Positions 34,898 through 64,000 of a DNA stretch of 64,000 nt are shown here, in pieces. Each line of letters opens with the position of its first letter. Positions within the stretch are counted from its first letter, which is position 1. A program made the position numbers and the translations under genes. Under the pieces are notes generated by a model. That model saw only the letters and a list, made by a program, of their open reading frames with translations, ran no database searches and had not been told where the DNA came from. This DNA is from Chlorella sorokiniana (lineage: Eukaryota; Chlorophyta; Trebouxiophyceae; Chlorellales; Chlorellaceae): positions 2,170,001 to 2,234,000 of the forward strand of contig CP084614.1 of NCBI GenBank assembly GCA_025917655.1. Direction: 5' to 3'.

Positions 34898-36132
34898 TCA
34901 GCTGAGCAGGTCGACAGCCAGGGGCAAGCCCATCCCTTCCAGCGCGGTCGTCATGAACCGTGACACAACACCGTAGCGCCCACCCTCCAGGCAGGCACAC
35001 AGGAAGCTGCCCTGCTGGCATGGGGAGGGCATACGGCAGGTCTGAGACCACAATCCATCCATGCACCGAGGATGGCAAAGCTTGCTAGCGTGGTTGGGAG
35101 TCTGCTCCTCCGTTCCCACCTGTTCTGCGGTGACGTGGGGCATCAGCGCGTCAAACGCGGCCACCAGCTGCGGCGTCAACCCCGCCGCTGCCGCAGCTGG
35201 ATGCTGAACAGAGTGCTGTAAAGCTTCAACCACACTGTGCAGCGGGCTGCTGTTTGCATTTGGGTCACCGGGCTGAGCCAGCGCTGGAGGTTTCTTGGGT
35301 GCTGGCAACAGGGTGGGCGCTGTGCTGTGCGGCGCTTGCTGCAAGGCATGCAGCTCAGCCAGAGCAGCCAGCACATCAAGCAGCTCGTGTGCCTCATCAC
35401 CCTCCTCAGCCTCAGACCAGGGCTGCTCGCTGTCGCCGCTGCACAGAGCACCAAGCCTTGCCTTCCTGCGCTGCTCGGGCCGCTTGAATGGGCGGAGGGT
35501 GGGCATGCTGACGGTCCTGGACGCAAGCAAGCAGCATGCCTTGCACAGCGCAATCGTGGCCCCAGGGTTCGGTCTGCGTCTCTTCGCCGATGCAGTCTTG
35601 AAGCCGCAGTGTGTGCAGCGGTGGTTCTGTGCCAGGGTCCCCTGCTGAAGGCAGCAGGCTCCACGGCCAGCAAGGGGTCGTCCATCTCCGCCGCCAGCAC
35701 AGCCAGCCCAGCAACCTGTCCGCCACTGCCCTCATTGCTGGGCTGCTGTTGGTGGAGAGTGTGCAACCGCTGCTCACTGGCCTGCCTGCTGCATGCAGCT
35801 GGCGCTTCCAGCGCTTGAACGGTGCTCGTGGCGCGCGCCGCGGCCGCCGCCACTCCATCGCTGCCATGACAGGGCCCCTTGATTTGCTGCAGCAACCTGC
35901 GAAATCTTGCAGTCAGCCAGACCTCAGCCCGTCTTGAAAGTTGCCGGTGAGCAGGAGGTGCGAACTGAAGGGAGGCCCGTTGCCCGAGAGTGGCTGAGAC
36001 CACGCCAATCCCACAGACTTCGGTCCAAGGGTGCTTATCAGGCAGCCTGAGAAGTCCTAAGAGAGGAAATGGTGCAGCTTGAACGACTGAAGGAAACTCG
36101 TACCTGTGTGCTGCTGCCTGCTTCACCCTCAT
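34898..36132 (-). CDS. Divergent single-finger GATA protein at the edge of the array
   Basis: Exon 35120 to about 35640 contains one finger, CTHCGFKTASAKRRR then ALCKACCLL (C-x2-C-x20-C-x2-C, no Trp), followed by basic FKRPEQRRKAR, an acidic stretch and GLTPQLVAAFDALMP. The last exon 34898-35011 (38 codons) encodes FLCACLEGGRYGVVSRF and GLPLAVDLLS. The split helical C-terminus is homologous to that of the other array genes (CLVELLQRRQYSLAAALI). The N-terminal part upstream (about 35650-36132; MRVKQAAAHR, VQALEAPAACSRQASEQ, DDPLLAV) is shared with the modules at 39.8 and 45.4 kb. The join between DDPLLA and AQNHRCTHC needs a tiny 23-nt intron or an indel. It could be the founder-type gene of the array. 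Confidence 0.6.
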
Positions 36133-36304
36133 GCTTTGAATGTCTTGTTAAGGTGGAGACTCACAGACTGCACACTGAAAACTTTTCTACACCAGAGAGT
36201 GTGGCGGCAGGAAAACAGTGGCAGTACAGGATTCAAACGCATGTACAGCTGCACGCAAGACGACAAGGTTCAGCAAGGATTGCTGGCTCTTCTTGTTTTT
36301 GACC

Positions 36305-39300
36305 TTAGAGCTGGTGCTGAAGACCTGCAAGAGCAAGCTGATGGGACCCGTGCACGGCGTTGATCAAGGCCGCTGCCAGGCTGTACCGTCGACGTCGCAG
36401 CAGCTCCACCAGGCAGCGCTCCTGCAGAGAACCTCAGCAATGCAGTGTGACGGGAGCAACTTGGCGATCCAAGATCCACTTACAACAACAAAGAATTTGC
36501 AAGTCACCTTCCCTGCTTGGACCGGCAGCAGGTCCAGGAACCCAGCCGCCATTTCGGCGGTCAGCCCTGCTGCTGCTGCCGCTGGCTGCTGCATGACATC
36601 CATGAGCAAGTCGTACAGGCTGGGCTGCTGCACAGCTGGCTGGGGGCAAGCTGCTCCGCTGCCTGCGGCGGTTCAGTGGGCATCTCGGCCAGCGACAGTC
36701 GTGATGCTTGTTGGGGCTGCGGCTGCTGCCCGGCATGAATGCTAGCTGGCTGCACACGCTGAGGGGCATCCGGAGCAGTGGGCGCAGAGTGCTGGTTGTT
36801 GCGCTGGGCAGGCTGTTCTGAGACCGATGCAGGGGCCTCCTGGCGCTGGCGCTTGCTGCTGTGAGGCAGCAGGCCCTGCCCAGAACGCTTCCTGCACCAA
36901 AGCGTCGGATCTTCAGGCTCGCCCTGCAGTTCTCGGGCTGTGGAGGCTGAACCGTGCAGCAAGGCTGCAGTGCTGCTGGGCTGAGGCACATCTTGGGGCT
37001 GCTGCACCTGAGCGCTGTTTGGGGCCGCCAGCAAAGCATGGCTGGTGCGCTGCTGCCCATTGCTCGCATCAATCGTAGCTGCTTGCTGGTCTTTGCCGGG
37101 TAGCTGCATCTGGCGCTTTATCATGAATCGAATCCGGTTCCCACATGGCATGCACAGCCACTGGGCAGGATTGGCTGGGTGCCGGTGCCAGTGAGCCTTT
37201 GCATAGCTCCTGCCGCTGCTGGGGTCGGATGAGCCGCACTCTGTGCACTGCCGTGGGCCCGGTTCGCATGGCGGCATTTGCCGCAGCCGCTCGCGCCTCT
37301 CAAGCACGCCCTTGTCAGGCAGCTGCCCTGCGTGTCCTTTAGCAAACTGCCAACAGGCATTGCACAGCTGCGCCTGCGTAACTGGGTGCCAGCACCAGAC
37401 GCCAGCTGTCCATTTGCAGCTGCAATGGGAGCAGCGCCGTGCCTCCTCCTCTTCCTCTGGGCTGTGCCCCTCCTGATGGTTGCCTGACGTGTCTTGCATG
37501 AACGAGGCTGTCCCCTGCTTTTCTGGCTCTGCCGTGCCTGCAAGCTGAGCTGCACGCTGTGCCTCTGGTGCAGGCAGTCTGGGTGGCGGCTGCAAGCGGG
37601 GATCGCGGCTACTGCCAGGAGTCCTGTCAGGGCTGGGCAGGGCTTTGCTGGGCGGCTTCTGCGGTGCGACTTGGCTGCCTCCGGCGGGCCGCAGCGGCGA
37701 ATCCTTGGGCTGCAGCATCTGCTTGTTGTTTTGGGCCGCCAGCACAGTGTGGCTGTCGCGCTGCTGCCCATCCGCCGCATCAACTGGGGATGCTTGCTGG
37801 CCAGCTGCGTTCAGCTGCATCTGGCGCCTGAACCTGCATCCAATCCTTGAACCACAGAGCATGCACAGCCACTGGGCAGGATTGGCTGGGTGCCGGTGCC
37901 AGTGAGCCTTTGCATAGCTCCTGCCGCTGCTGGGGTCGGATGAGCCGCACTCTGTGCACTGCCGTGGGCCCGGTTCGCATGGCGGCATTTGCCGCAGCCG
38001 CTCGCGCCTCTCAAGCACGCCCTTGTCAGGCAGCTGCCCTGCGTGTCCTTTAGCAAACTGCCAACAGGCATTGCACAGCTGCGCCTGCGTAACTGGGCGC
38101 CTGCACCAGGCGCGAGATGTCCATTTGCAGCTGCAGTGTGAGCAGCGCTGTGCCTCCTCCTCTTCCTCTGGGCTGTGCTCCTCCTGCTGGCTGCCTAATC
38201 TGTCGTCCTCCCCCAGAAGTGCTGCCCGCTCATCTGGCTCTGCTGCGCCTGCATGCTGACCTGCATACTGTGCCTCTGGTGCAGGCAGTCTGGGTGGCGG
38301 CTGCAAGCGGGGATCGCGGCTACTCCTGCCAGGGCTAAGCATGCCGAAGCTGGGCAGCAACGGCTGCTTGGCTTGCCTGCCTAAGGCAGGCCGCAGCGGT
38401 AATGCTGCGTCGAGTGGATCGCCGGCGCTTCCCATCTGAAAATGGACAAGGACATCAGCTTGCATGAGTAAAGGGCGGCAGTGGAACGGTAACTGTCTTT
38501 GCAGCAATCACATCCAGCAAGCCACCGCAACAGTCTACATCTCACCGTGTCTGCTTGCACCGGCAGCAGGCCCAGGAACCCAACCGCCATCTCGGCTGTC
38601 AGCCCTGCTGCTGCCGCTGGCTGCTGCATGGCATCCATGAGCAAGTCGTACAGGCTGGGATGCTGCAGAGCTTGCTCGGGGCCAGCTGCGGCGCTGCCTG
38701 CAGCGGTGCAGTGGGCATCTCGGCCAGCGACAGTCGTGATGCTTGTTGGGGCTGCGGCTGCTGCTGGGGATGAATGCGGGCTGGCTGCTCCTGCTGAGGG
38801 TCCTCAGGCGCTGTGGGCGCAGCATGCTCGTTGTTGCGCTGGTCAGGCTGTTCTGTTGCCGATGCAGGGGCCTCCTGGCGCTGGCGCTTGCTGTTCTGCG
38901 GCTGTGGGCCCTGCCGGGAACGCTTCCCGCGCCCATGCGTGCGACTTTCAGGCTCGGCCCGCACCTCGGCGGTGGCAGCTGGACCGCTCAGCAGGGCTGC
39001 TGCACTGCAGGGCTGGGGCACATTCTGGGGCTGCTGCACCTGCGCGCTGTTTAGGGCCACCAGCGCTAGCGCAGCCTTGTTGTAGGGTTGCTGCCCAATG
39101 CTTGTGTCCTGTTGAGCTGCTGGCCTCTCTGCGCCGTTCAGCTGCATCTGCCGCTTGAACTTGGATTTTACCCTCCAACCACAGGGCATGCACAGGCTCT
39201 GGGCCTGATTGGCTGGGTGTCGGTGCCAGAAAGGCCTGTCATAGCTCCTGCCGCTGCTGGGGTCTGCCGAGCCGCACTCTGCGCATTGTCGTGGTGCACC

Positions 39301-40088
39301 GTGCCTCAGCTGCTCACGCTTCTCCAGCACGCCCTTGTCAGGCAGCCGTCCAGCGTATTTTTTAGCAAACTGACAACAGGCAGCGCACAGCCGCGCCCGC
39401 GTGGCTGGATGCCTGCGCCAGGCACCTGATGTCCATGTGCAGCTGCAGTGGGAGCAGTGCTGTGCCTCCTCCTCTTCCTCTTGGCTGTGCCCCTCCTGCT
39501 GGTTGCCTGACATGTCGTCCTCGCACGGTGACGCTTGCTGCTCGTCTGGCTCTGCTGTGCCTGCATGCTGAGCTGCCTGCTGTGCCGCGGTCCCCTGCTT
39601 GAAGGCGGGCTGCACGGCCAGCAAGGGGTCGTCCAACGTCGCCGCCAGCACAGCCTGCCCAGCAACCTCTTTCTTGCCTGTGCTTCCTCCATTGCTGGGC
39701 TGCTGTTGGTGGAGAGTGTGCAACCGCTGCTCACTGGCCTGCCTGCTGCATGCAGCTGGCGCTTCCAGCGCTTGAACGGTGCTCGTGGCGCGCGCCGCGC
39801 CGCCGCCACTCCATCGCTGCCATGACAGGGCCCCTTGATTTGCTGCAGCAACCTGCGAAATCTTGCAGTCAGCCAGACATCAGCCCGTCTTGAAAGTTGC
39901 CGGTGAGCAGGAGGTGCGAGCTGAAGGGAGGCCCGTTGCCCGAGAGCGGCTGAGACCACGCCAATTCCACAGACTTCGGTCCAAGGGTGCTTATCAGGCA
40001 GCCTGAAAAGTCCTGACAGGGGAACCGGTGCAGCTTGAACGGCTGAAGGAAACCCGCACCTGTGTGCTGCTGCCTGCTTCACCCTCAT
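36305..40088 (-). CDS. Multi-module double-GATA-finger protein (modules 3 and 2)
   Basis: Three coding parts on the minus strand: a first module exon (38546 to about 39830, leader possibly to MRVKQ at 40088), a second exon 36508-38435 that itself holds two modules, and a C-terminal exon 36305-36421 (39 codons, ERCLVELLRRRR to HQL). Six zinc fingers in total. In exon 2, CSHCSCKWTS and LCNACWQFAKGH form finger 1, and CTECGSSDPSSGRSY and WHRHPANPAQWLC form finger 2, then the set repeats. The first module starts with the leader of the 34.9-kb gene instead of MGSxGD. Exons join in phase 0 (VQADT|MGSAGD and VQAGK|ERCLV). Frame breaks lie at the GCCCC(C) run near 38685 and again near 36645, after which the frame returns to SLYDLLMDVMQQP. 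A nuclear DNA-binding role is inferred from the fingers. Confidence 0.62.
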
Positions 40089-40192
40089 TATTCGAGTGGT
40101 TCTTTTATTTGGAGACTCACAGACTGTACACAAAACATGTAACACGTAACACCAGAGAGTTTGGCGGCGGAGAAACAGTGGCAGTACAGGAT

Positions 40193-41652
40193 TCAAACGC
40201 ATGTACAGCTGCACGCAAGACAAAAGGTTGAGCAAGGACTGCTGGCTCTTCTTGCGTACTGGTGCTGAAGACCTGCAAGCGCAAGCCGATGGGACCCGCA
40301 CACGGCGTTGATCAAGGCCGCTGCCACACTGAACTGTCGGCGTCTCATTAGCTCCACCAGGCAGCGCTCCTGCAGAGAACCTCAGCAACTGAGTGTGATG
40401 GGGGCAATCTTGCAATCCATTTGCAATGGCAAAAAAACAGCGCCCCACCTTCTCTGCTTGCACTGGAAGCAATCCCAGGAACCTAGCTGACATCTCGCCA
40501 GTCAGCCCTGCTGCTGCTGCCGCGGGCTGCTGCATGGCATCCATGAGCAAGTCGAACAGGCTGGGCTGCTGAAGAGGTGGCTCGGGGCCAGCTGCTCCGC
40601 CTGCGGCAGTGCAGTGGGCACCTCAGGCAGCATCAGCTGCATGGCTGGTCGGCGCTGCTGCTGCTGCTGGGCATGAATGCCTGCTGGCTGCTCCGGCTGA
40701 GGGGCCTCCTGCGTCATGGCTGCGATGGGCGCGGCGTGCTTGTTGCTTCGCTGTTCAGGCTGTTCTCTGACCGATGCTGAGGCCTCCTGGCGCTGGACCT
40801 TGCTGCCATGTGGCTGCGGGCCCTGCCCAGCACACTTCCTGCGCCCATGCGTGCGACTTTCTCGGCCCGCACCTCTTTGGCGGTGGCAGCTGGATCGCTT
40901 AGCAAGGCTGCAGCGCTGCTGGGCTGAGGCACATCCTGGGGCTGATGCACCTGCGCGCTGTTTGGGGCCGCTAGCGCAGCCTTGTTGTAGGGTTGCTGCC
41001 CAATGCTTGTGTCCTGTTGAGCTGCTGGCCTCTCTGCGCCGTTCAGCTGCATCTGCCGCTTGAACTTGGATTTTACCCTCCGACCACAGGGCATGCACAG
41101 GCTCTGGGCCTGATTGGCTGGGTGTCGGTGCCAGAAAGGCCTGTCATAGCTCCTGCCGCTGCTGGGGTCTGCCGAGCCGCACTCTGCGCACTGCCGTTGT
41201 GCACCATGCCGCACCCGCTCTCGCCTCTCCAGCACGCCCTTGTCGGGCAGCTGCCCAGCGTTTTTTGTGGAAAACTGCCAACAAGCGTTGCACAGCCGCG
41301 CCCACGTGGCCGAGTGCTTGTACCAGCCACCAGATGTCCATGTGCAGCTGCAGTGGGAGCAGCGCCGTGCCTCCTCATCTTCCTCTGGTCTGTTCCCCTC
41401 CTGCTGGTTGCCTGGCGTGTCGTCCTCGCACGGGGCTGCATGCTGTATGTCTGCCTCTGCTGTGTCTTCATGCTGAGCTTCATGCTGTGCCTTTAGTGCA
41501 GGAGAAGAGAGTGCTGGTGGCTTCAAGCGGGGATCACGGTCGCTGCCAGGGCTGGGCATGCCGTCGCTGGGCAGCGATAGTGGTGCGGCGTGGCCGTTGC
41601 CGGCTGGCTGCGGCGGCACTGCTGCATCGCCTGAATCGCTAGGGCTTCCCAT
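40193..41652 (-). CDS. Double-GATA-finger protein (module 4)
   Basis: Single-module gene. Module exon 40449-41652 starts with ATG directly after a CAG acceptor (MGSPSDSGDAAVPP). Finger 1 (about 41285-41363) is CSHCSCTWTSGGW to LCNAC, spacing C-x2-C-x19-C-x2-C with the GATA hallmarks W and LCNAC. Finger 2 (about 41083-41186) is CAECGSSDPSSGRSY to LCMPC, C-x2-C-x27-C-x2-C. Then come basic RRVKSKFKRQMQ and a Q/P/A linker. A frame break at about 40582 (CCCC run) precedes the conserved helix region. C-terminal exon 40193-40369 (ERCLVELMRRRQFS). Because its HQ is not followed by a stop, this copy runs on to a TGA at 40193. A leader exon (41761-41839) and its GTGAGCGGGT intron lie upstream and are probably 5' UTR. 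Confidence 0.65.
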
Positions 41653-41760
41653 CTGGGAATGATATGGGATGCTGGCTAAAGCTAACGTTTGGGGCTCACT
41701 GCCTGGCTTCGTGGTGGGGTCCTCGTTCGGGCGGAAGCCCCTGCGGTTGCACCCGCTCAC

Positions 41761-41839
41761 CTTCAAAGCGCCCTGAAAAGCTGCATTCCACAAGCACTTG
41801 ATTGACTGCCTTGTGAGCGGCAGGCTTCGAGCGAGCAGT
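41761..41839 (-). other. Conserved untranslated leader exon of an array gene
   Basis: Bounded by a CAG acceptor and a GTGAGCGGGT donor, then an intron ending CCCAG|ATG. Similar exons occur at about 47329-47407, 51005-51083, 54970-55047, 57340-57425 and 61008-61095. Their lengths differ by amounts not divisible by three, and no single frame is open in all, so I read them as 5' UTR with translation starting at MGSxGD. Confidence 0.45.
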
Positions 41840-41942
41840 CTGTTGTCGGTGTCCTTATCTCTTCACACAATCACTGACAACAACAAGAAGACAATGGGTC
41901 ACACAGGCCTTCCAACGACAGCTTCAGTGACAGAGCAGCGCC

Positions 41943-42290
41943 CTACTGCAGCTCGTCCAGCAGCCTGCCCAGCATGCGGACCGCGTTCAGGGTCTCCTGC
42001 CGCTTCTGTCGCAGGCGAGTGCGTCAGCTGCCTGCTTGCCGCCTCCACCTCCTGCCCCCGCCGTTTCAGCATGCCACAGCCTGGGTGGGCGTGGGCAAAG
42101 CCCCGGCCGCGCTGGCGGGCCCCGCCTGCTGGTCGCTGCCAGACTGCAGAGCCCGCTGGAGCCGGGCAGCCTGTTTCCTCCTCAAGCCATGCAGTGTGAG
42201 CATGCAACGCCGTCGCCTCCTGCTCCTGCCCCTTGATCGCCGCGCTTTGCGGCGGCGCCAGCAGCCGCAGCAGTCAGCGGACTTCAGTAT
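41943..42290 (-). CDS. Small coiled-coil reading frame, copy A
   Basis: Lies 5' of the module-4 gene. Encodes a heptad-like stretch (LKRRGQEVEAASRQL; ends LLDELQ before TAG). Frame breaks are present, so start and integrity are unclear. It could be a separate small protein or an upstream reading frame of the GATA gene. Confidence 0.3.
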
Positions 42291-42324
42291 CTGCCAACTC
42301 TAGCCACAAAACAGTGCTGTCTGC

Positions 42325-42329
42325 TTACA
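42325..42329 (-). terminator. Candidate TGTAA polyadenylation signal
   Basis: TGTAA on the coding strand about 265 nt after the stop of the gene at 42593, the usual chlorophyte signal. Equivalent copies sit at the same distance in the duplicate and in two other array genes. Confidence 0.35.
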
Positions 42330-42592
42330 TGCTATTGCCAGCATCACCGTCATGCCTGCTGTGGCTTGTGCCAGCTGGTGAACTGCATCCATCAGGAGGC
42401 TGGAACATACCCTAGAGGGCTCAATTCTTCAAATGTCCTTTCAATATGGAGGCGCACAGACTGTACATTGTCAAGCTGTAACCCAAGAGGCACTGGCGGG
42501 AGGGGGTGGCAGTACTGGAAAAAAAAAGGCGTGTACAGCTGCATGCATGACGACCAGTCTCATAAACGATTGCTGACTCATCCTCTTTCGCT

Positions 42593-45500
42593 TCAGCGCT
42601 GGTGCTGAAGACCGGCAAGCGCAAGCTGATGGGACCCGCACACGGCTTTGATCAAGGCCGCTGCCAGGCTGTACTGTCGACGTTGCAACAGCTCCACCAG
42701 GCAGCGCTCCTGCAGGGATACTACAGCAACTCGGTGTGACGGGAGCAACTTGACGATCCACTTACAACGACAAAGAACATGCGCCTCACCTTGTCTGCTT
42801 GGACCGGCAGCAGGCCCAGGAACCCAGCAGCCATCTCGGCACTCAGACCTGCTGCTGATGCCTCTGGCTGCTGCATGGCATCCATGAGCAAGTCGTACAG
42901 GCTGGGCTGCTGCTCAGCTGGCTGGGGGCAAGCTGCTCCGCTGCCTGCGGCGGTTCAGTGGGCATCTCGGCCAGCGACAGTCGTGATGCTTGTTGGAGCT
43001 GCGGCTGCTGACCGGCATGATTGCTAGCTGGCTGCACACGCTGAGGGGCATCCGGAGCAGTGGGTGCAGCGTGCTGGTTGTTGCGCTGGGCAGGCTGTTC
43101 CGAGACCGATGCAGGGGCGTCCTGACACTGGCGCTTGCTGCTGTGCGGCTGCCGGCCCTGCCCAGAACGCTTCCTGCACCAAAGCGTCGGATCTTCAGGC
43201 TCGTCCTGCAGTTCTCGGGCTGTGGAGGCTGAACCGCGCAGCAAGGCTGTAGTGCTACTTGGCTGATGCACATCCTGGGGTTGCTGCACCTGCGCGCTGT
43301 TTGGGGCCACCAGCACAGCCTGGTTGTCGGGCTGCTGCCCATCCCTCGCATCAATCGGAGATGTTTGATGGCCAGCAATGTTCAGCTGCATCTGGCGCCT
43401 GAATTTGTATCGTATCCTATCACCACAGGGCGAACACAGCCACTCGGCTGCATTGGCTGGGTGCCGGTGCCAGTGACCTTTTGCATAGCTCCTGCGGCTG
43501 CGGGGATCTGACGAGCCACACTCTACGCACCGCCGTGGTGCCATCTGCCTCAGCCGCTCACGCCTCTCCAGCATGCTCTTGTCAGGCAGCTGCCCAGCGT
43601 GTCTGCTTGCGAATTGCCCGCATGCATGGCAAAGCTGCGCCAGCGTGGCCGGGTGCCTGCGCCAGGCATAATATGTCCATGTGCAGCTGCAGTGTGAGCA
43701 GCGCTGTGCCTCCTCCTCTTCCTCTTGGCTGTGCTCTTCCTGGTGAGTGCCTGGCGTGTCTCCTTCCCCCAGTACTGTGCCCTGCTCGTCTGGCTCTACT
43801 GCGCCTGCATGCTGAGCTGCATGCTGTGGCTGTTGCGTGGGCGGTCTGGGTTGTGGCTTCAAGCGGGGATCGCGACTGCTGCCTGAATTCCTGCCAGGTC
43901 TGGGCATGCCGTCACTGGGCAACAACGGCTGCTTGGCTTGGCTGCCTCCGGCGGGCCGCGGCGGTACTGCTGCGTCGAGTGGATCGCCGGCGCTTCCCAT
44001 CTGAAAATGGACAAGGACATCAGCTTGCATGAGTAAAGGGCGGCAGTGGAACGGTAACTGTCTTTGCAGCAATCACATCCAGCAAGCCACCGCAACAGTC
44101 TACATCTCACCGTGTCTGCTTGCACCGGCAGCAGGCCCAGGAACCCAACCGCCATCTCGGCTGTCAGCCCTGCTGCTGCCGCTGGCTGCTGCATGGCATC
44201 CATGAGCAAGTCGTACAGGCTGGGATGCTGCAGAGCTTGCTCGGGGGCCAGCTGCGGCGCTGCCTGCAGCGGTGCAGTGGGCATCTCGGCCAGCGACAGT
44301 CGTGATGCTTGTTGGGGCTGCGGCTGCTGCTGGGGATGAATGCGGGCTGGCTGCTCCTGCTGAGGGTCCTCAGGCGCTGTGGGCGCAGCATGCTCGTTGT
44401 TGCGCTGGTCAGGCTGTTCTGTTGCCGATGCAGGGGCCTCCTGGCGCTGGCGCTTGCTGTTCTGCGGCTGTGGGCCCTGCCGGGAACGCTTCCCGCGCCC
44501 ATGCGTGCGACTTTCAGGCTCGGCCCGCACCTCGGCGGTGGCAGCTGGACCGCTCAGCAGGGCTGCTGCACTGCAGGGCTGGGGCACATTCTGGGGCTGC
44601 TGCACCTGCGCGCTGTTTAGGGCCACCAGCGCTAGCGCAGCCTTGTTGTAGGGTTGCTGCCCAATGCTTGTGTCCTGTTGAGCTGCTGGCCTCTCTGCGC
44701 CGTTCAGCTGCATCTGCCGCTTGAACTTGGATTTTACCCTCCAACCACAGGGCATGCACAGGCTCTGGGCCTGATTGGCTGGGTGTCGGTGCCAGAAAGG
44801 CCTGTCATAGCTCCTGCCGCTGCTGGGGTCTGCCGAGCCGCACTCTGCGCATTGTCGTGGTGCACCGTGCCTCAGCTGCTCACGCTTCTCCAGCACGCCC
44901 TTGTCAGGCAGCCGTCCAGCGTATTTTTTAGCAAACTGACAACAGGCAGCGCACAGCCGCGCCCGCGTGGCTGGATGCCTGCGCCAGGCACCTGATGTCC
45001 ATGTGCAGCTGCAGTGGGAGCAGTGCTGTGCCTCCTCCTCTTCCTCTTGGCTGTGCCCCTCCTGCTGGTTGCCTGACATGTCGTCCTCGCACGGTGACGC
45101 TTGCTGCTCGTCTGGCTCTGCTGTGCCTGCATGCTGAGCTGCCTGCTGTGCCGCGGTCCCCTGCTTGAAGGCGGGCTGCACGGCCAGCAAGGGGTCGTCC
45201 AACGTCGCCGCCAGCACAGCCTGCCCAGCAACCTCTTTCTTGCCTGTGCTTCCTCCATTGCTGGGCTGCTGTTGGTGGAGAGTGTGCAACCGCTGCTCAC
45301 TGGCCTGCCTGCTGCATGCAGCTGGCGCTTCCAGCGCTTGAACGGTGCTCGTGGGCGCGCGCCGCGGCCGCCGCCACTCCATCGCTGCCATGACAGGGCC
45401 CCTTGATTTGCTGCAGCAACCTGCGAAATCTTGCAGTCAGCCAGACATCAGCCCGTCTTGAAAGTTGCCGGTGAGCAGGAGGTGCGAGCTGAAGGGAGGC

Positions 45501-45656
45501 CCGTTGCCCGAGAGCGGCTGAGACCACGCCAATTCCACAGACTTCGGTCCAAGGGTGCTTATCAGGCAGCCTGAAAAGTCCTGACAGGGGAACCGGTGCA
45601 GCTTGAACGGCTGAAGGAAACCCGCACCTGTGTGCTGCTGCCTGCTTCACCCTCAT
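42593..45656 (-). CDS. Two-module double-GATA-finger protein (modules 6 and 5)
   Basis: Exon 1 (44111 to about 45380, leader possibly from MRVKQ at 45656) is the duplicate of module 3. It is intact through SLYDLLMDAMQQP, where copy A is broken. Exon 2 (42790-44000) begins MGSAGDPLDAAVPP and holds fingers CSHCSCTWTYYAW / LCHACGQF and CVECGSSDPRSRRSY / LCSPCG, then RIRYKFRRQMQ. The C-terminal exon 42593-42709 encodes ERCLVELLQRRQYS to HQR. Exon 2 crosses the duplication junction: its first codons match the start of module 2. Frame break at the GCCCCC run near 42920. Four fingers in total. The leader lacks the coiled-coil and leader exons seen upstream of the other genes. Confidence 0.62.
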
Positions 45657-45760
45657 TATTCGAGTGGTTCTTTTATTTGGAGACTCACAGACTGTACACA
45701 AAACATGTAACACGTAACACCAGAGAGTTTGGCGGCGGAGAAACAGTGGCAGTACAGGAT

Positions 45761-47220: not shown

Positions 47221-47510
47221 CTGGGAATGATATGGGATGCTGGCTAAAGCTAACGTTTGGGGCTCACTGCCTGGCTTCGTGGTGGGGTCCTCGTTCGGGC
47301 GGAAGCCCCTGCGGTTGCACCCGCTCACCTTCAAAGCGCCCTGAAAAGCTGCATTCCACAAGCACTTGATTGACTGCCTTGTGAGCGGCAGGCTTCGAGC
47401 GAGCAGTCTGTTGTCGGTGTCCTTATCTCTTCACACAATCACTGACAACAACAAGAAGACAATGGGTCACACAGGCCTTCCAACGACAGCTTCAGTGACA
47501 GAGCAGCGCC

Positions 47511-51119: not shown

Positions 51120-51652
51120 TCACTGACGACAAGGAGACGATGGGCCACTTCCCTTTGAACGACAGCTTCAGTGACACAGCTGCGCCCAAATGCAGCTCGT
51201 CCAGCAGCGCGCCCACCATGCCGGCCATGTTGGCGTTCAATGCCTCCACCTGCTGCCTTTTCTCTCGCAGGCGGTGGCGCCACCCTCCTGCTGGCTGCCT
51301 TCACCTCCTGCGACCGCCGCTTCAGCATGCATGCCCACAGCCTGGGGAGGCGTGGGTGGTACCGCTGCCGCGCTGGACGGTCCTGCCTGCTGGTGGCCGC
51401 CAGCCTGCAGAGCTGGAGCAAGGCAGGCTTGTCCTGCTCAAGCCGTGCAATGCGGGCCCGCAGCGTTCCCGCCTCCTGCCCCTGCTCCCTGACCGCCGCG
51501 TTTTGTGGCGGCGCCAGCAGCGGCAGCAGGCAGCGCAGCGCAGCTGCCCGGATGTCAGCGCTGCTTAGGTGCAGGCACACAAGCAGGCGTGTGCTGAGGG
51601 GGACCCCGTGATGCTCCCCGGGCTCCCCAGGCAGGCGCTGCGTGATCTCCAT
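51120..51652 (-). CDS. Small coiled-coil protein, longest copy
   Basis: Starts MEITQRLPGEPGEHHG and continues STRLLVCLHLSSADIRAAAL, LLAPPQNAAVREQGQE and RARIARLEQDKPALLQ. A frame break follows, then MLKRRSQEVKAASR and MVGALLDELH. TAG is replaced here by a sense codon, so the frame runs to TGA at 51120. No family was recognised. The heptad pattern of L, I and A suggests a coiled coil. It sits 5' of the module-8/7 gene on the same strand. Confidence 0.35.
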
Positions 51653-54851: not shown

Positions 54852-55149
54852 CTGGAAGTGCACACGGACATCAGCTTGAGTTAATATTGGGGGCGGCAGT
54901 GGCGCTCACTGCCTGGCTTCGTGGTGGGGTCCTTGTGCGTGCGAAGCCCCTGCAGCTGCACCCGCTCACCTTTAAAGAGCCTTGCGTGAGCTGCAGCTTG
55001 CAAACACTTGTTAAGTGCCTTGTGCGGCAGCCTCTGAGCGAGCAGTCTGTTGTCGATGTCCTTATCCCTTCACACAATCACTGACAACACCAAGAAGACA
55101 ATGGGTCACACAGGCCTTTCAACGACAGCTTCACTGACAGAGCAGCGCC

Positions 55150-55525
55150 CTACTGCAGCTTGCCCAGCATCTCGCCCAGCATGCCGACCGCGTTGGCGTC
55201 CAAGGTCTCCTCCCTCGCCAGCTGCTGCCGCTTCTCTCGCAGGCGGTGTTCCAGCTGCCTGCTGGCCCCCTCCACCTCCTGCGACCGCCGCATCAGCCTG
55301 CCCACAGCCTGGGTGGGCGTGGGCGGTACCGCTGCCGCCCTTGACGGCCCTGCCTGCTGGTGGCCTGCAGCCTGCAGGGCCCGCTGAAGCCTGGCAGCCT
55401 GCTTCCTGCTCAAGCCATGCAGTGCGAGCATGCAGCGCTGCCGCCTCCTGCCCCTGCTCCCTGATCGCCTCGCGTTGCGGCGGCGCCAGCAGCGGCAGCG
55501 GCAGCGAAACTTCAATAACTGCCAT
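55150..55525 (-). CDS. Small coiled-coil protein, clear copy
   Basis: Start MAVIEVSLPLPLLAPPQ at 55525, then REAIREQGQEAAALHAR and WLEQE. One missing base follows, then QAARLQRALQAAGHQQ, QEVEGASRQLEHRLREKRQ, LDANAVGMLGEMLGKLQ and TAG at 55150. About 125 residues with strong heptads on both sides of a Pro/Ala linker. Function unknown. It lies 5' of the module-10/9 gene, downstream of a TGTAA element. Confidence 0.4.
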
Positions 55526-55552
55526 CTCTGACCACAAAGCAGCCTCGTCTGC

Positions 55553-55557
55553 TTACA
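55553..55557 (-). terminator. Candidate TGTAA polyadenylation signal
   Basis: About 263 nt after the stop of the gene at 55820, in the same context as the elements at 42325 and 47893. Confidence 0.35.
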
Positions 55558-55819
55558 TACTCTTGCCAGCATCCGTCATGCCTGCTGTCGCTGCTGCCAG
55601 CTGCTAGCTGCATATCTCAAAAGATCCCACAGGCTATCCTCCGCCCCTCAACCCCACAATGTACGATGTCTTTCTAATGTGGAGGCCCACAGACTGTACA
55701 ATGTAAAGACCAAGAGGCACTGGCAGGAGAGGGTGGCAGTACAGGATATCAAACGCATGTACAGCTGCATGCACAACGACAAGCTTGAGCAAGGATTGCT
55801 GGCTCATCCTGTTTTCGCT

Positions 55820-57230
55820 TTAGTGCTGGTGCTGAAGACCGGCAAGCGCAAGCCGATGGCACCCGCACACGGCGTTGATCAAAGCCGCTGCAAAGCTGTA
55901 CTGTCGATGTTGCAAAAGCTCCACCAGGCAGCGCTCCTGCAGGGATACTTCAGCAACTCTGTGTGATGGGGGCAACTTGCAACGTTCCACTTGCAACGGC
56001 GAAGAAGCTGCGCCTCACCTTTTCGGCTTGCACTGGCAGCAGGCCCAGAAACCCAGACGCCATCTCGCCAGTCAGCCCGGCTGCTGCTGCTGCTGGCTGT
56101 TTCATAGCATCCATGAGCAAGTCGTACAGGCTGTGCTGCTGCCCAGCTGGCTCGGTGGCAAGCTGCGGCGCTGCCTGCGGCGGTGCAATGGGCACCTCAG
56201 TCAGCCTCAGCTGCATAGATGGTTGCCGCTGCTGCTGCTGAGGGGCATGCATACGTGCTGGCTGCTCCTGCTGAGGGGCCTCCAGTGCAGTGGCTGCAAT
56301 GGGCGCAGCATGCTGGTTGCTGCGCTGGTCAGGCTGTTCTTTGACCGATGCAGGGGCCTCCTGGCGCTGGCGCTTCCGTCTGTGCGGCTGCGGTCCCTGC
56401 CATGAACGCTTCCTGCGCCCATGCATGCGACTTTCAGGCCTGGCCCGCACCTCTCTGGAGGTGGCAGCTGGACCGCTCATCAAGGCTGCAGTGCTGCAGG
56501 GCTGAGGCGTATCCTGGGGCTGCTGCACCTGAGCGCTGTTTGGGGCCGCCAGCTCAGCGTGGCTTGTCCGCTGCTGCCCAATGCTTGTGTCCTGTTCAGC
56601 TGCTGGCATCCCTGCGCCGTTCAGCTGCATCTGGCGCTTGAACTTGTATCTTATCCTCCCACCACAGGGCTTGCACAGCCACTGGGCTGGATTGGCTGGG
56701 TGCCGGTACCATTGAACCTGAGCATAGCTCCTGCCGCCACTGGGGTCTGCCGAGCCGCACTGTGCGCACTGCCGTGGCGACATTTGCCGCTGCTGCGCAC
56801 GCCTCTCCAGCACGCCCTTGTCAGGCAGTCGCCCAGCGTGTCTATCAGCAAACAGCCAGCACGCCCTGCACAGCTGCGCTTGGGTGGCCGGATGCCTGCG
56901 CCAGGCACCAGATGATGAAGTGGAGCTGCAGTGGGAGCAGCGCTGTGCCTCCTCCTCTTCCTCAGCGCTGAGCCCCTCCTGCTGGCTGCCTGACGTGCTG
57001 TCTGGGCTGGGGGCTGCCTGCTGCTTGTCTAGCTCTGCTGCGCCTGCATGCTGAGCTGCCTGCTGTGCTTCACTTGCAGGCAGTCTGGGTTGCGGCTGCA
57101 AGCGGGGATCGCGGCTACTCCTGCCAGGGCCGGGCATGCCGTCGCTGGGCGGCGACAGCGGTGCGGCGTGGGCGCTGCTGGCTGGCTGCGGCGGCACTGC
57201 TGAATCGGCTGAATCGCCAGGGTTTCCCAT
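55820..57230 (-). CDS. Double-GATA-finger protein (module 11), uninterrupted frame
   Basis: The best-preserved single-module gene. Module exon 56019-57230 (MGNPGDSADSAVPP) is open throughout. Finger 1 is CSHCSSTSSSGAW / LCRACWLF, finger 2 is CAQCGSADPSGGRSY / LCKPCGGRIRYK. A linker with KRKRQRQEAPASVKEQ is followed by SLYDLLMDAMKQP, LTGEMASGFLGLLPVQAEK and a GTGAGG donor. C-terminal exon 55820-55936 (39 codons, ERCLVELLQ to HQH). Predicted product about 440 residues. Leader exon at about 57340-57425. This copy is the best reference for the family. Confidence 0.72.
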
Positions 57231-57517
57231 CTGGGAATGATATGGGATGCTGGCTTAAGTTAACGTTTTGGGGCTCATTGCCTGGCTTCGTGGTAGGGTC
57301 CTAGTTCGGGCCGAAGCCACTGCGGCCGCACTCGCTCACCTTTATGGAGCCCTGCACAAGCTGCAGCTTGCATACGCTTGTTTGACTGCCTTCTGAGCGG
57401 CACCTGCCTGGGCTCTGAGCAAGCAGTCTGTTCGTCGGTGTTTGTACACCTTCACACAAAAGAAGACAATGGGTCACACAGGCCTTCCAACGACAGCTTC
57501 ACTGACACAGCAGCGCC

Positions 57518-57850
57518 CTACTGCAGCTCGCCCACCGGCCTGCCCCGCATGCCCGCCATGTCGGCTGTCAAGGTCTCCTCCGTCTCTTCCTGCTGCCGCT
57601 CCTCTCGCAGGCGATGCGCCGCCTGCCTGCTGGCCGCCTTCACCTCATGCGCCCGCCGCTTCAGCATGCCCACAGACTGGGTGGGCATGGGCGATGCCGC
57701 TGCCGCGCTGGAGGGACCTGCCTGTTGGTCGCCGCCAGCCTGCAGAGCCCGATGCAGCAGGGCAGCCTGATCCTGCTCAAGCCGGGCAATGTAAGCCCGC
57801 AGCGCTGCCGTCTCCCGCTCCTGCGCCCTAATCGCCGCGCTTTGCGGCGT
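57518..57850 (-). CDS. Small coiled-coil reading frame, uninterrupted copy
   Basis: One open frame: AAIRAQERETAALRAYIARL, EQDQAALLHRALQAGG, SVGMLKRRAHEVKAASRQ, HRLREERQQEETEETL and RPVGELQ before TAG at 57518. No ATG is obvious at its 5' end, so the start is unresolved. It shows the full intended frame of this element and that the Pro/Ala-rich linker separates two helical halves. Confidence 0.38.
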   Translation of the reverse strand, partial: TPQSAAIRAQERETAALRAYIARLEQDQAALLHRALQAGGDQQAGPSSAAAASPMPTQSVGMLKRRAHEVKAASRQAAHRLREERQQEETEETLTADMAGMRGRPVGELQ

Positions 57851-57920
57851 CTATAGCAGTGGCGGCAGGCAGCGGAGCTCCAGTAACTGCCACCTCTAGC
57901 CACAAAGCAGCCTCGTCTGC

Positions 57921-57925
57921 TTACA
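57921..57925 (-). terminator. Candidate TGTAA polyadenylation signal
   Basis: About 360 nt after the stop at 58285, in the conserved context CTTGCCAGCAT found in the other spacers. Confidence 0.3.
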
Positions 57926-58284
57926 TGCTCTTGCCAGCATCCGTCATGCTTGCTATCGCTGCTGCCAGCTTCTGAACTGCATCTATCAAAAGGTCTCACA
58001 GGCTCCCATCCGCCCCTCCACCCCACAATGTACGTTGAAAAAGACAGTTGAACATGCAGCAACCTTAGTACATCAGTTCAGTGGCAGGGGAGAAGGCTGG
58101 AACATACCTTCGAGGGTTCAATATTCAAATGCCCTTTCAACGTGGAGGCGCACAGACTGTACAACGTAAAGCTGTAACCCAAGAGGCACTGGCGGGAGGG
58201 CAGTACTGGATTTATAAAAGGCATGTATCGCTGCATGCATGCCGAGAAGTTTGAGTACGGATTGCTGACTCGTCCTCTTTTGCT

Positions 58285-60886
58285 TTAGTGCTGGTTCTGA
58301 AGACCTGCAAGCGCAAGCCGATGGCACCCGCACACTGCGTTGATCAAGGCCGCTGCACCGCTGTACTGTCGACGTCTCAAGAAGTCCACCAGGCAGCGCT
58401 CCTGCAGGGATACTTCAGCAACTGGGTGTGATGGGGGCAACTTGGCGATCCACTTGCAACGGCAAAGAATTGCGGCTCACCTTCTCGGCTTGCACTGGCA
58501 GCAAGCCCAGGAACCCAGCCGTCACCTCGACTGTCAGCCCTGCTGCTGCTGCCTCTGGCTGCTGCATGGCATCCATGAGCAAGTCGTACAGGCTGGGCTG
58601 CTGCAAAGCTGGCTTGGGGGCAACCTGCGGCGTTGCCTGCGGCTGAGCAGTGGGCACCTCAGTCAGCGTCAGCTGCATGGCTGGTTGGAACTGCTGCTGC
58701 TGCTGGGCATGAATACGTGCTGGCTGCTCCTGCTGTGGGGCCTCTGGCGCAGTGGGCGCAGCGTGCTGGTTGCTGCGCTGGTCAGGCTGTGCTCTGACCG
58801 ATGCAGGGGCCTCCTGACACTGGCGCTTGCTGCTGTGCGGCTGCGGGACCTGCCGAAGACGCTTCCTGCGCCCAGCTGAACCGTTCAGCAAGGCTGCTGC
58901 GCTGTAGGGCTGAGGCACATCCTGGGGCTGCTGCACCTGCGTGCTGTTGGGGGCCTCCATAACAGTGTGGCCGTCGCGCAGCTGCCCATCCCTCGCATCC
59001 ACTGGAACTGCTTGCTGGCCAGCTGCGTTCGTCTGCGACTGGCGCCTGAACCTGTATCTTATCCTCCCACCGCATGGCATGCACAGATACTGAGCAGGAT
59101 TGGCTGGGTGCCGGTGCCAGTAAGGCCTTGCATAGCTCATGTTGCTGCTGGGGACTGACGAGCTGCACTCTGCGCACTGCCGTGGTGCCTTTTGCCGCAG
59201 CCGCTCACGCCTCTCCAGCACGCCCTTGTCAGGCAGCCGCCCAGCATGTCCTTTGGCAAACTGCCAACAGGTTTTGCACAGCTGCGCCCGCATGGCCGCG
59301 TGCCTGTGCCAGCCGCCAGCTGCCCGTGTGGAGTTGCAGTGGGAGCAGCGCTGTGCCTCATCCTCTTCCCCTTGGCTGTGCCCCTCCTGATGGTTGCCTG
59401 ACATGTCGTCCTCCCCCAGGGGCTCTGCTGCGCCTGCATGCTGAGCTGCATGATGTGCCTCTGGTGCAGGCAGTCTGGGCGGCGGCTGCAAGCGGGGATC
59501 TCGGCTGCTTCTGCCAGGGCTGGGCATGGCGTTGCTGCGTTGCGATAGTGGTGCGGCGTGGCCGTCGCTGGCTGGCCGCGGCGGCACTGCTGCATCGCCT
59601 GGAGCGCCAGGGCTTCCCATCTGAGGATGGTAGTGGACAAAAGAAAATGCTCTATTTAGGGACGGCAATTGGGCACTTACTGTGTTTAGCATTCACATCC
59701 AGCATGACACCCCAAAAGTCTACACCTCACCGTGTCTGCTTGCACCGGCAGCAGGCCCAGGAACCCAGCTGCCAACTTGGCAGTCAACCCTGCTGCTGCT
59801 GCCGCCTCTGGCTGCTGCATGGCACCCTTGAACAAGTCGCAGTGGCTGGGCTGCTGCAGAGCCGGCTTGGGAGCCAGCGGCGGCGCTGCCTGCGACGGTA
59901 CAACGGGCACCTCAGTCAGCGACAGCTGCAAGGCCGGTTGGCGCTGCGGCTGCTGCTGGGCATGAGTACGTGCTGGCTGCTCCTGCTGTGGGGCCGCTGG
60001 CGCAGTGGGCGCAACGTGCTGGCTGCTGCGCTGGTCAGGCTGTGCTCTGACCGATGCAGGGGCCTCCTGACACTGGCGCTTGCTGCTGTGCGGCTGCGGG
60101 ACCTGCCGAAGACGCTTCCTGCGCCCTGCAGAACCGTTCAGCAAGTCTGCTGCGCTGTACGGCTGAGGCACATCCTGGGGCTGCTGCACCTGCGCGCTGT
60201 TGGGGGCCTCCAGCGCAGCGTGGTTGTCGGGCTGCCGCGCATCCCTCGCATTGACTGGAGCTGCTTGCTGGCCAGCTGCGTCCGGCTGCATCTTGTGTCT
60301 GAACTTTGAGCGTATCCTCCAATTACAGGGCATGCACAGCCACTGGGCCGGATTGGCTGGGTGCCGATTCCAATAAAACGGGAATAGGTCCTACCACTGC
60401 TGGGATCTGACGAGCCGCACTCTATGCACTGCCGTGGTGCCGTCTGCCTCAGCTGCTCACGCCTCTCCAGCAGATCGTTGTCAGGCAGCCGTCCGCCATG
60501 GTGTAAGGCAAACTGCCCACACGCATGGCACAGCTGTGCCTTTGTGGCCGGGTGCCTGCGCCACTGGCCAGCTGTCCGTGTGGAGCTGCAGTGGGAGCAG
60601 CGCCGTGCCTCCTCCTCTTCTTCTTGGCTGTGCCCCTGCTGGTTGCCTGACGTGTCGTCCACCCCCCGGGCTGGCCCCTGCTCGTCTGGCTCCGCTGCGC
60701 CTGCAGGCTGAGCTGCCTGCTGTGCCTGTAATGCAGGCTGTCTGGATGGCGGCTGCAAGCGGGGATCGCGGCGACTCCTGCCAAGGCTGGGCATGCCGTC
60801 TCTGGGCGGCGACAGCGGCTTCGCTTGGCTGCGCCGCCTGGTTGCAGCGGCACGGCTGCATCGGCTGGAACGGTAGGGCTTCCCAT
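58285..60886 (-). CDS. Two-module double-GATA-finger protein (modules 13 and 12)
   Basis: Exon 1 is 59731-60886 (MGSPTVPADAAVPL). Its finger 1 is CSHCSSTRTAGQW / LCHACGQF and finger 2 is CIECGSSDPSSGRTY / LCMPC. Two breaks: one early in the exon, and one in the T4 run (plus 60375-60378), where one more T restores RFYWNRHPANPAQW. Exon 2 is 58481-59620 (MGSPGAPGDAAVPP), open through both fingers (CSHCNSTRAAGGW / LCKTCWQF and CAECSSSVPSSNMSY / LCMPCGGRIRYR) and the helix region. In exon 2 LCNAC has become LCKTC and the second finger reads CAECSSS, so the finger loops are diverging. C-terminal exon 58285-58401. Joins are phase 0 (VQADT|MGS). Confidence 0.64.
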
Positions 60887-61144
60887 CTGAGAATGAACAC
60901 GGACATCAACGCGAGTTCACGTTGGGGGCAGCAGGTAAGGCTCACTGCCTGGCTTGGTGGTGGTGTCCTCGTTCGGGCCGAAGCCCCTGCGGTCGCACCC
61001 GCTCACCTTCGAAAAGCCCTGCACGATCGGCGCCCTTCAGGCACTCGTTTGCTGCCTTGTGAGCGGCGGGCACTGAACGAGCAGTCTGATACACGGTGTC
61101 CTTTGCACCTTGAGGGTCTAACACATTCACACTGACACACAACA

Positions 61145-61320
61145 AGGAGACGATGGGTCACACAGGCCTTTCAACGACAGCTCCACTGACAGAACAGCGC
61201 CCCACTGCAGCTTGCCCCGCAGCGCGCCCGGCATGCCGCTGACTGCGTTGGCGTTCTAGGTCTCCTGCGCCACCTGCCTGCTGGCCGCCTCCATCTCCTG
61301 CGCCCGCCGCTTCAGCAGCC
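61145..61320 (-). pseudogene. Truncated duplicate of the coiled-coil 3' end
   Basis: Repeats the last part of the coiled-coil frame and its 3' flank (the stretch complementary to GGGTCACACAGGCCT onwards), a second time next to the fuller copy at 61440-61863. An apparent local duplication remnant. Confidence 0.45.
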
Positions 61321-61439
61321 TGGGCGGGCGCCGAACAGCAGTCTGCTCTCGAATCCCCTTGTAACTTGTGTGGCCCTCACGCAGTACTGACGACAAGGAG
61401 ACGATGGGTCACACAGGCCTCCTGACGACAGCTTCAGTG

Positions 61440-61863
61440 ACAGTGCAGCGCCCAACTGCAGCTTGCCCAGCAGCGCGGCCAGCATGCCGGCCATGTCGGC
61501 ATTTAAGGTCTCCTCCTCCCCCACCTGCTGCCGCTTCTCTCGCAGGCGGTGCTCCACCTGCCAGCCTCCCTCCTCCACCTCCTGCGCCAGGCGCTTTTGA
61601 GCATGCCCACAGACTGGGTGGGCGTGGGCGGAACCGCTGCCGCAGAAAAGGGCCCTGCCTGCAGGTGCGCGCCAGCCTGCAGAGCCCTCTGGAGCCTGGC
61701 TGCCTGGTTCCTGCTCAAGCGTGCAATGCGAGCCCGCAGCGCTGCCGCCTCCTGCTCCTGCCCCCTGACCGCCGCGCTTTACAATGGCGCCAGCAGCGGC
61801 AGCAGGCAGCGGAGCTTCAGTAACTGCCACATCTGACCACAGAGCAGCGTTTCCTGCGCTCAT
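61440..61863 (-). CDS. Small coiled-coil reading frame
   Basis: Contains KRLAQEVEEGGWQVEHRLREK, QVGEEETLNADMAGML and ALLGKLQ. The TAG of other copies is TTG here. Upstream half in another frame, so at least one break. Confidence 0.3.
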
Positions 61864-62233
61864 GCTAATGCCAGCACCACCGTCATGCCTGCTGTCGCTG
61901 CTGCCAGCTGCTTAAAACTGCTGCCAGCTGCTAAACTGCGCATTTCAAAAGGTCCCACAGGCCTTCCTCCGCCCCTCTTCCCCGCATTGTACGATGAACG
62001 CGACAGGGGAACATGCAGCAACCTTAGAACATCGATTCAGTGGCAGGGCAGAAGGTTGAACCATAACCTCATTCTTCGAGTGCCTATTCAAAAGTGGAGG
62101 CTCACAGACATTGTAAAGTAGTTACCCAAGAGGCCCATGCGGGAGGGGGGCAGTATATAAACAAAAACGCATGTACAGCTGCAAGCATGACGACAAGGTT
62201 CAGCAAGGATTGCTAGTTCTTCTGTTTTTTGCT
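61864..62233. other. Spacer between array genes
   Basis: 3' flank of the gene ending at 62234. Nothing separate recognised. Confidence 0.35.
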
Positions 62234-64000
62234 TTAGTGCTGGTGCTGAAGACCTGCAAGAGCAAGCTGATGGGACCCGCGCACGGCGCTGATCAGGGCC
62301 GCTGCCAGGCTGTACCGTCGACGTCGCAAAAGCTCCACCAGGCAGCGCTCCTGCAGGGATACTTCAGCGACTCAGTGTGATGGGAGCAACTTGGCAATCT
62401 ACTTAACGACAAAGAATATGCGCCTCACCTTCTCTGCTTGGACCGGCAGCAGGCCCAGGAACCCAGCAGCCATCTCGGCTGTCAGCCCTTCTGCCGCTGC
62501 CGCTGGCTGCTGCATGGCATCCATGAGCAAGTCGTACAGGCTGGGCTGCTGCATACCTAGCTGAGGCCCCAGCTGCGGCGCTGCCTGCGGCGGTGCAGTG
62601 GGCACCTCAGTCAGCGACAGCTGCGAAGCTGGCTTGGGCTGCGGCTGCTGCTGCGCATAAGTGCCAGCTGGCTGCTCCTGCTGAGGGCCCCCTTGCGCCT
62701 TGGCTGCAATGGGAGCAGCGTGCTGGCTGCTGCGCTGGTCAGGCTGTTCTCTGACCGATGCAGAGGCCTCCTGGCGCTGACGCTTCCTTCTATGCGGCAG
62801 CGGGCCCTGCCCAGAACACTTCCTGCGCCCATGCGTGCGACTTTCAAGCGCGGCCCGCACCTCTCTGGCGGTGGCAGCTGGATCGCTTAGCAAGGCTGCA
62901 GCGCTGCTGGGCTGAGGCACATCCTGGGGCTGCTGCACCTGTGCGCTGTTTGGGGCCGCCAGCGCAGCTTGGTTGTCGCGTTGCTGGCCAACGCTTGTGT
63001 CCAGTTGAGCTGCTGGCCTCTCTGCGCCGTTCAGCCGCATCTGGCGCTTCAACTTGTATCGTGCCCTCCCACCACAGGGCTTGCACAGCCACTGAGCTGG
63101 ATTGGCTGGGTGCCGGTACCATTGACCTGTCACCAAGCTCCTGCCGCCGCTGGGATCTGCTGAGCCGCACTGTGCGCACTGCCGTGGGCCAGTCGTGCAT
63201 GGCGACATCTGCCGCTGCTGCACACGCCTCTCCAGCAGACCCTTGTCAGGCAGCCGCCCAGCGTGTCTATCAGCAAACACCCAGCACGCTCTGCACAGCT
63301 GCGCTTGCGTTGCCGGATGCCTGCGCCAGTGGTCAGATGTCCATGAGCAGCGGCAGTGTGAGCAGCGCTGTGCCTCCTCCTCTTCCTCAAGGCCGTGCCC
63401 CTCCTGCTGGCTGCCTGACGTGTCGTCCTTGCACGGGGCTGAATGCTGCTCGTCTGGCTCTGCTGCGCCTGCAAGCTGAGCGGCATGCTGTGCCTCTAGT
63501 GCAGGCAGTCTGGGTGGCGGCTTCAAGCGGGGATCGCGGCTGCTGCCAGGAATCCTGCCAAGGCTGGGCATGGCTTTGCTGGGCTGCAACAGCAGTGCGG
63601 CTTGGCTGCCGCCGCCTGGCTGCCGCGTCACTGCTGCATTGCTTGGATTGCCAGGGCTCCCCACCGGAGGATGGTATTGGACATCAGCTTGAGTTAACGG
63701 TTGGGGCCTGCAATGGTGAACGAAATCACCATACTCTGGCACAGGCAGGAAACCGTGCCTCACCTTCTCTGCTTGCAACGTCAGCAGATCAGAAAACCCG
63801 CCCGCCGACTCGGCTGTCAGCCCTGCTGCTGCTGCCGCCGGCTGCTGCCTGGCATCCAGGAGCAAGTCGTTGTTGCGCTGGTCAGGCTGTTCTCTGACCA
63901 AAGCATGAGTCTCTCTGGCGCTGGCGCTTGCTGCTGTGCGGCTGCGGGCCCTGCCCAGAACGCTTTCTGCGCCCATGCGTGCGACTTTCAGGCTCGGCCC
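62234..64000 (-). CDS. Double-GATA-finger protein (module 14 plus partial module 15), 5' end outside window
   Basis: C-terminal exon 62234-62350, module exon from 62429. Fingers: CSHCRCSWTSDHW / LCRACWVF and CAQCGSADPSGGRSL / LCKPCGGRARYK. In frame through SLYDLLMDAMQQP and LLPVQAEK. At its 5' side the usual CAG|ATG acceptor is replaced by CCTCCG|GTGGGG, and the reading frame stays open through the former intron into another module end (AAAAAGLTAESAGGF, LTLQAEK). Modules 14 and 15 are thus one continuous frame of over 500 codons. Module 15 has lost most of its Q-rich linker between REQPDQRN and DLLLDARQQP. Its fingers, if any, lie beyond 64000. Confidence 0.62.

Follow-up and report, generated by a model that had tools for sequence, protein, structure and literature searches.

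What drives the local multiplication of a zinc-finger gene, and what do the new copies gain by it? The question is raised by a 64,000-base stretch of the genome of the green alga Chlorella sorokiniana, hereafter the window (C6:2170001-2234000 of a 38.8-Mb, 15-contig assembly), in which an earlier note described a one-strand array of two-finger, GATA-like genes and proposed its expansion by birth and death under selection for diversity or dosage. That description of the array was correct but slightly too small, as a further 7.7 kb lies past the window end. We favor, with moderate confidence, the reading that the array holds genes for DNA-binding proteins that multiply by unequal crossing-over while selection favors new DNA specificities. 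In the mechanism we propose, the array would encode a family of GATA-type zinc-finger proteins built from an exon that could be joined in series, giving proteins with two, four, or six fingers ahead of a common last exon, and homologous exons would recombine unequally, so that modules and genes are gained and lost. The scaffold would be kept while the predicted DNA-facing residues evolve at a rate close to neutral or above it, a combination through which new copies would most likely gain new DNA specificities.

A tandem array of two-finger modules

Fifteen first fingers (F1; C-S-H-C-X19-C-X2-C) lie at 37353-63364 of the window, all on the minus strand, and each is followed by a second finger (F2; C-X2-C-X27-C-X2-C), which is frameshifted in module M14. 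These 15 modules fall into nine putative genes, since the window contains nine of the 11 last exons found, and they are accompanied by a single-finger relative at 34898-35731; both the count and the single strand agree with the earlier note. Five further modules (at 64422, 66427, 68734, 70070, and 71352 in coordinates extended from the window) and two further last exons bring the total to 20 modules (M01-M20) and 11 genes over 36.8 kb, at C6:2204898-2241722. A genome search with one module protein as query placed 39 of 40 matches, counts that are lower bounds, inside C6:2206469-2241669, the remaining match being weak and on contig C1. Compared in 136 pairs, the 17 distinct modules show 74-93% DNA identity across their finger regions, with a mean of 80%, which excludes chance as the source of their likeness; put the other way, they differ by 7-26%. 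The array as a whole is real, as the divergence of its copies shows. No report of an array of this kind appeared among the titles and abstract openings consulted, most subscription papers being beyond reach; for comparison, Chlamydomonas reinhardtii is credited with 12 GATA factors in the accessible part of one source (PMC4827209).

The fingers are nearest to GATA factors

Profile and fold searches support placing the fingers nearest GATA factors. PF00320 matched seven of the 10 window frames scanned at 12.2-26.8 bits, one of them reaching the cut-off of 26.8, and a genome search with the same profile placed eight matches inside the array, five of them scoring 26.8 bits or more, so the profile search proposed by the earlier note did return GATA similarity. 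A module profile run against the PDB drew 19 matches, 14 of them GATA factors with AreA among them, at a best E-value of only 0.0021, and the predicted fold of the module has GATA chains as its first matches; together these results back the suggested kinship. The F1 loop has 19 residues in all 20 modules and fits the GATA pattern C-X2-C-X17-20-C-X2-C (finger loops of 17-20 residues in the accessible text of PMC10302256), and the F2 loop, with 27 residues in the 19 readable modules, lies outside that range. All eight Cys are present in 19 of the 20 modules, M14 retaining those ahead of its frameshift, and none is lost by substitution in any module; basic residues follow both fingers.

The array proteins thus have the C-X2-C ... 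W-R-R/H ... L-C-N-A-C core and, by prediction, the fold of GATA factors such as GATA1/3, AreA, and plant GATA proteins, but differ from them in the F2 loop, in their two-finger exon modules, in their local array, and in contact residues that are not conserved. Conserved contact residues for (A/T)GATA(A/G) are a defining trait of the GATA family, and in the array the equivalents of GATA3 Leu327, Asn339, Leu343, and Leu347 vary across the 17 modules. We assign the family to the GATA class by predicted fold, but WGATAR binding should not be assumed, because the conserved contacts are not kept.

Fast change at the predicted DNA face

Selection was measured on 17 of the 20 modules, with M03, M04, and M05 dropped (their finger DNA is identical to that of M06, M07, and M08) and M14 masked after its frameshift and excluded from the F2 tree. 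The contact set consisted of 11 finger residues (Thr326, Leu327, Arg329, Arg330, Asn339, Ala340, Leu343, Tyr344, Lys346, Leu347, and His348) mapped by HMMER alignment from a GATA3 list in the accessible part of PMC8611019, which mixes contacts to DNA with contacts to a second GATA3 molecule and names Arg329, Arg330, Asn339, and Lys346 as hydrogen-bonding DNA.

The eight Cys and two Trp are invariant wherever readable in the 17 distinct modules. Variability peaks in both fingers just N-terminal to the Trp and in the helix past the fourth Cys, and entropy correlates between the fingers (17 equivalent position pairs, Spearman 0.70, p 0.002). M01 and M02, for example, have fingers that differ much at the contacts. 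When the 124 columns are ranked by variability, 10 of the top 11 belong to the contact set, whose mean entropy was matched by random finger positions without Cys or Trp in 1 of 20,000 draws. The ratio of non-synonymous to synonymous rates (omega) is 1.39 at the contact set against 0.31 in other finger sites (likelihood-ratio test statistic, LRT, 127), and 1.32 against 0.31 when the four DNA-hydrogen-bonding residues are taken alone. With one tree per finger, where the comparison class is every remaining site of that part, the tails among them, the contacts stand at 1.37 against 0.40 (LRT 53.5) and 1.45 against 0.37 (LRT 58.9). Site by site, 9 of the 17 positions with beta > alpha and LRT > 2 are contacts, including the three strongest; sites 90 and 112, which in F2 correspond to Thr326 and Lys346, remain above neutrality once 124 sites are corrected for (LRT 17.3 and 13.1). 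Of 5000 random sets of 22 finger sites, 62 reach the beta of the contacts. Within five close pairs, the change is non-synonymous in 37 of the 45 contact codons that differ, against 73 of the 114 that differ outside the contacts (one-sided Fisher test, p 0.018). A narrower contact set, picked after the data were seen, gives an omega of 2.70 and is descriptive only. That the predicted DNA face changes fast is a firm result; positive selection on the contact set as a whole is likely rather than proven, with omega above 1 depending on the model. Of the two forms of selection in the earlier note, diversity is supported by this fast change, whereas the pattern does not suggest dosage.

The first alternative to weigh, unlikely in our judgment though it retains real weight, is neutral birth and death, in which redundant fingers drift in a recombination-prone array and the contacts are the least constrained positions once targets are lost. 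Several results fit drift and weigh against the selection that we favor. When the synonymous rate is left free, omega is 1.30 at the contacts and 0.31 in the rest, and 1.30 is not different from 1 (LRT 1.9); by finger, the values are 0.93 for F1 contacts and 2.18 for F2 contacts, so that the F1 contacts alone do not exceed neutrality in this model. A single omega over all finger sites is 0.57, and exon and intron similarity are close (M01-M05 and one of seven introns left out). The mixture of DNA and protein contacts in the GATA3-derived set, together with the F1 result, slightly lowered our confidence in the favored reading. Drift would nevertheless have to accommodate an omega of 0.3-0.4 in the scaffold and of 0.32 in the C-terminal helix (the six of 20 modules open from F1 to exon end), which indicate that the proteins are still under selection, as well as the two sites that exceed neutrality after correction and the retention of every Cys against substitution.

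That the fingers bind protein or RNA instead of DNA, their variable face then reading variable partners, we consider improbable. A GATA finger can bind protein (1y0j, by its title), F2 has a much longer loop than GATA factors do, and the GATA3 list, as far as its source is accessible, consists partly of protein partners, but the equivalents of the four DNA-hydrogen-bonding residues vary like the rest of the set, and the basic residues after both fingers also speak for DNA. Highly improbable is selection to escape a binder of the finger's DNA-facing side, as phytoplasma SAP05 binds plant GATA18; although the fold search matched the solved structure 8j48, whose title describes such an effector bound to a plant GATA finger, we know of no such parasite of this alga.

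Module exons and probable unequal crossing-over

Each module is a single exon, repeated one to three times per gene ahead of a conserved last exon. It starts with ATG, directly after a CAG, in 16 of the 20 modules (14 ATG-GGA, one ATG-GAA, and one ATG-AAA; M15, M06, M03, and M01 are without this start), and a GT donor directly follows it in 19 of 20 (15 GTGAG, two GTGGG, one GTAAG, and one GTGAC). Both exon ends are in phase 0, which is what would make joining in series possible. The introns joining modules are about 110 bases long (seven measured, CAG excluded), and M02 and M01 stand in one open frame, intron-free. The exon encodes a Pro/Gln-rich leader that carries the motif R-D-P-R-L and, after it, an acidic stretch and the two GATA-like fingers, which a basic helix joins; a Gln-rich linker and a helical motif at the C-terminal end complete it. 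The 11 last exons have the pattern Q-E-R-C-L ... S-.-A-A-A-L, and their coding nature is supported by 52-71% likeness over 24-27 residues to the C-terminal end of P0009, a Chlorella vulgaris protein. From the positions of these last exons and the module spacings we infer 11 genes with, counted from the far end, 3, 1, 2, 2, 1, 2, 2, 1, 2, 1, and 3 modules.

Two blocks abut head to tail, one of 5565 bases at 38403-43967 (M03-M05) and one of 5570 bases at 43968-49537 (M06-M08). They differ by a sole substitution (43930/49500) and six length differences, and are the nearly identical copies of the earlier note. Their junction, at 43960-43980, lies early in the M05 exon, which is chimeric, M02-like on its 5' side and M08-like on its 3' side with six common bases at the switch. 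This is the footprint that an unequal crossover between homologous exons would be expected to leave, and together with the barely diverged 5.6-kb block it lends weight to the birth-and-death expansion proposed earlier. The jgi-sourced protein P0006 fits, by eye, the old M03-M02 junction and not the new M06-M05 junction, which occurs in none of the outside proteins at hand, so the 5.6-kb duplication is without outside confirmation.

The chance that assembly inflated the array from one or two real copies is very remote, for although the single substitution between the blocks, the missing outside match to the new junction, and the base-run errors of the assembly would suit such an artefact, the 17 distinct modules are too diverged for it, seven jgi-sourced proteins (P0001-P0003 and P0005-P0008) from contigs of up to 65,730 bases (M09, M20, and M10) and of 16,242 bases (M01 with the single-finger gene) belong to the array, and M02 and M08, with their six bases at the junction and a longest shared run of 31 in 231 bases compared, are unsuited to an overlap-driven misjoin.

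The frame at the exon end differs from the F1 frame in 12 of the 19 modules whose exon end was found. The six length differences between the blocks, seven bases in total, are all within single-base runs or next to them, and the jgi-sourced P0001, P0002, P0003, P0005, and P0006 read through frame breaks of the window (judged by eye, with a separate check for P0003, P0005, and P0006). For these two reasons the breaks are probably mostly assembly errors in base runs and not pseudogenes, with strain difference as an alternative source that they would also fit.

Positions of the genes and neighboring segments

At the array edge, the single-finger frame on the minus strand is degenerate, with C-X2-C-X20-C-X2-C at 35534-35617 and the Ala-rich C-terminal motif of the array family; a Pfam scan of this frame gave no match. 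About 2 kb of DNA upstream of its gene is 81% identical to that of the M03 gene (35627-37698 and 39580-41617), so that the edge gene and some array genes have a common 5' end. The predicted genes that follow are likewise on the minus strand. The three-module gene at 36311-39879 (5' end approximate; last exon 36424-36311) holds M03 at 39376-39456, M02 at 38064-38144, and M01 at 37353-37433. M04 forms a one-module gene at 40259-41652 (F1 41281-41361, F2 41086-41190; last exon 40372-40259), M06 (44942-45022) and M05 (43620-43700) a two-module gene at 42599-45447 (5' end approximate; last exon 42712-42599), and M07 a one-module gene at 45827-47220 (F1 46849-46929; last exon 45940-45827). Two-module genes lie at 48169-50884 (M09 50517-50597, M08 49190-49270; last exon 48282-48169) and 52150-54851 (M11 54477-54557, M10 53153-53233; last exon 52263-52150), followed by the one-module gene of M12 at 55826-57230 (F1 56859-56939, F2 56664-56768; last exon 55939-55826). 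M14 (60519-60599, its F2 frameshifted in the assembly) and M13 (59267-59347) share a gene at 58291-60886 (last exon 58404-58291), and the gene at 62240-64000 (last exon 62353-62240) has M15 (63284-63364) inside the window and M16 (64422-64502) beyond it.

Between genes recurs a segment of about 500 bases (41883-42375, 47451-47943, 51151-51539, 55081-55604, 57407-57938, and 61142-61911) holding a coiled-coil-like frame. The recurrence noted earlier is genuine, but a coding role is doubtful, because only the query copy at 61312-61911 is open throughout and the other copies found in the window have in-frame stops; the segment could represent a decayed gene or a promoter region that the genes share. 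No structural RNA reached the gathering score within the window. Outside the array, two copies of a direct repeat, each about 300 bases long and with 75% identity between them, occupy 25272-25568 and 28116-28434, and a 27-base unit forms a perfect tandem repeat of two copies (window 23147-23203).

Relatives in other algae and elsewhere in the genome

The Chlorella vulgaris hypothetical protein ACK3TF_006064 (P0009), the only row with that species name among nine matches (7993 candidates scored), has the same architecture, last exon included: an R-D-P-R-L leader, two fingers, an A-A-A-A-G-L-T motif, and a last exon with Y-S-G-A-A-A-L. Unlike the multi-module array genes, it has one module. In its model the fingers are predicted with block-mean pLDDT of 67-96 over residues 111-230, whereas the C-terminal helices reach only 50-62, and for this reason we claim no fold for them. 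As a query, P0009 led to another, smaller locus on C1, where two multi-finger genes lie on opposite strands some 15 kb from each other, C1:1516768-1517451 on the plus strand and C1:1531893-1533193 on the minus strand. Both are closer to P0010 (826 aa, source ena) than to the array, with stretches 43-61% identical to P0010. P0010 and both C1 genes have the finger types of the array, and P0010 also has its C-terminal motif, but finger numbers and spacings are different (five fingers by eye in P0010, four and two by pattern in the C1 genes). Also on C1, at C1:3318555, a 568-aa frame holds one GATA finger whose core reads W-R-R-H-P and whose tail reads K-H-G-K-L; this finger resembles the F1 of the array and could be near its origin. 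Scans of viral and genome contigs, from which records near this genome were possibly excluded, gave no viral or prokaryotic relative, and the family is so far seen only in Chlorella-like algae.

Likeness to other clusters and implications

KRAB zinc-finger proteins, according to the accessible part of PMC4592553, form clusters in which a conserved scaffold is combined with positive selection at specificity residues. The array is also clustered, with a conserved scaffold and fast, if model-dependent as to omega above 1, change at predicted DNA-contact residues, but in place of C2H2 fingers and a KRAB domain it has neither, as Pfam found none in the ten window frames or in P0001-P0003, P0007, P0009, and P0010. 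The NCL cluster of Chlamydomonas reinhardtii likewise belongs to a green alga and, in the accessible part of PMC8226300, is a single cluster that grows by recurrent duplication and whose products bind nucleic acid, as the array proteins are predicted to do; it differs in encoding RNA-binding OPR proteins and in having at least 32 genes. By analogy, the array would work like both clusters, by copying and re-tuning a recognition scaffold, while being a member of neither.

We also entertain, as a distinctly unlikely extension, that the array is the GATA-finger counterpart of the KRAB zinc-finger clusters, its DNA-reading residues driven by an arms race with changing DNA; it would then supply a self-renewing set of two-, four-, and six-finger proteins directed, for example, against mobile elements or against large DNA viruses that infect Chlorella-like algae. 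Conserved recognition of DNA has a standard example in the GATA factors. If selection for new specificities has indeed shaped this array, its fixed scaffold and contact turnover would constitute a natural series of GATA-finger variants. With such a series, the origin of new DNA specificities in a unicellular alga could be tested directly, as could the ability of a finger other than C2H2 to play an arms-race role.
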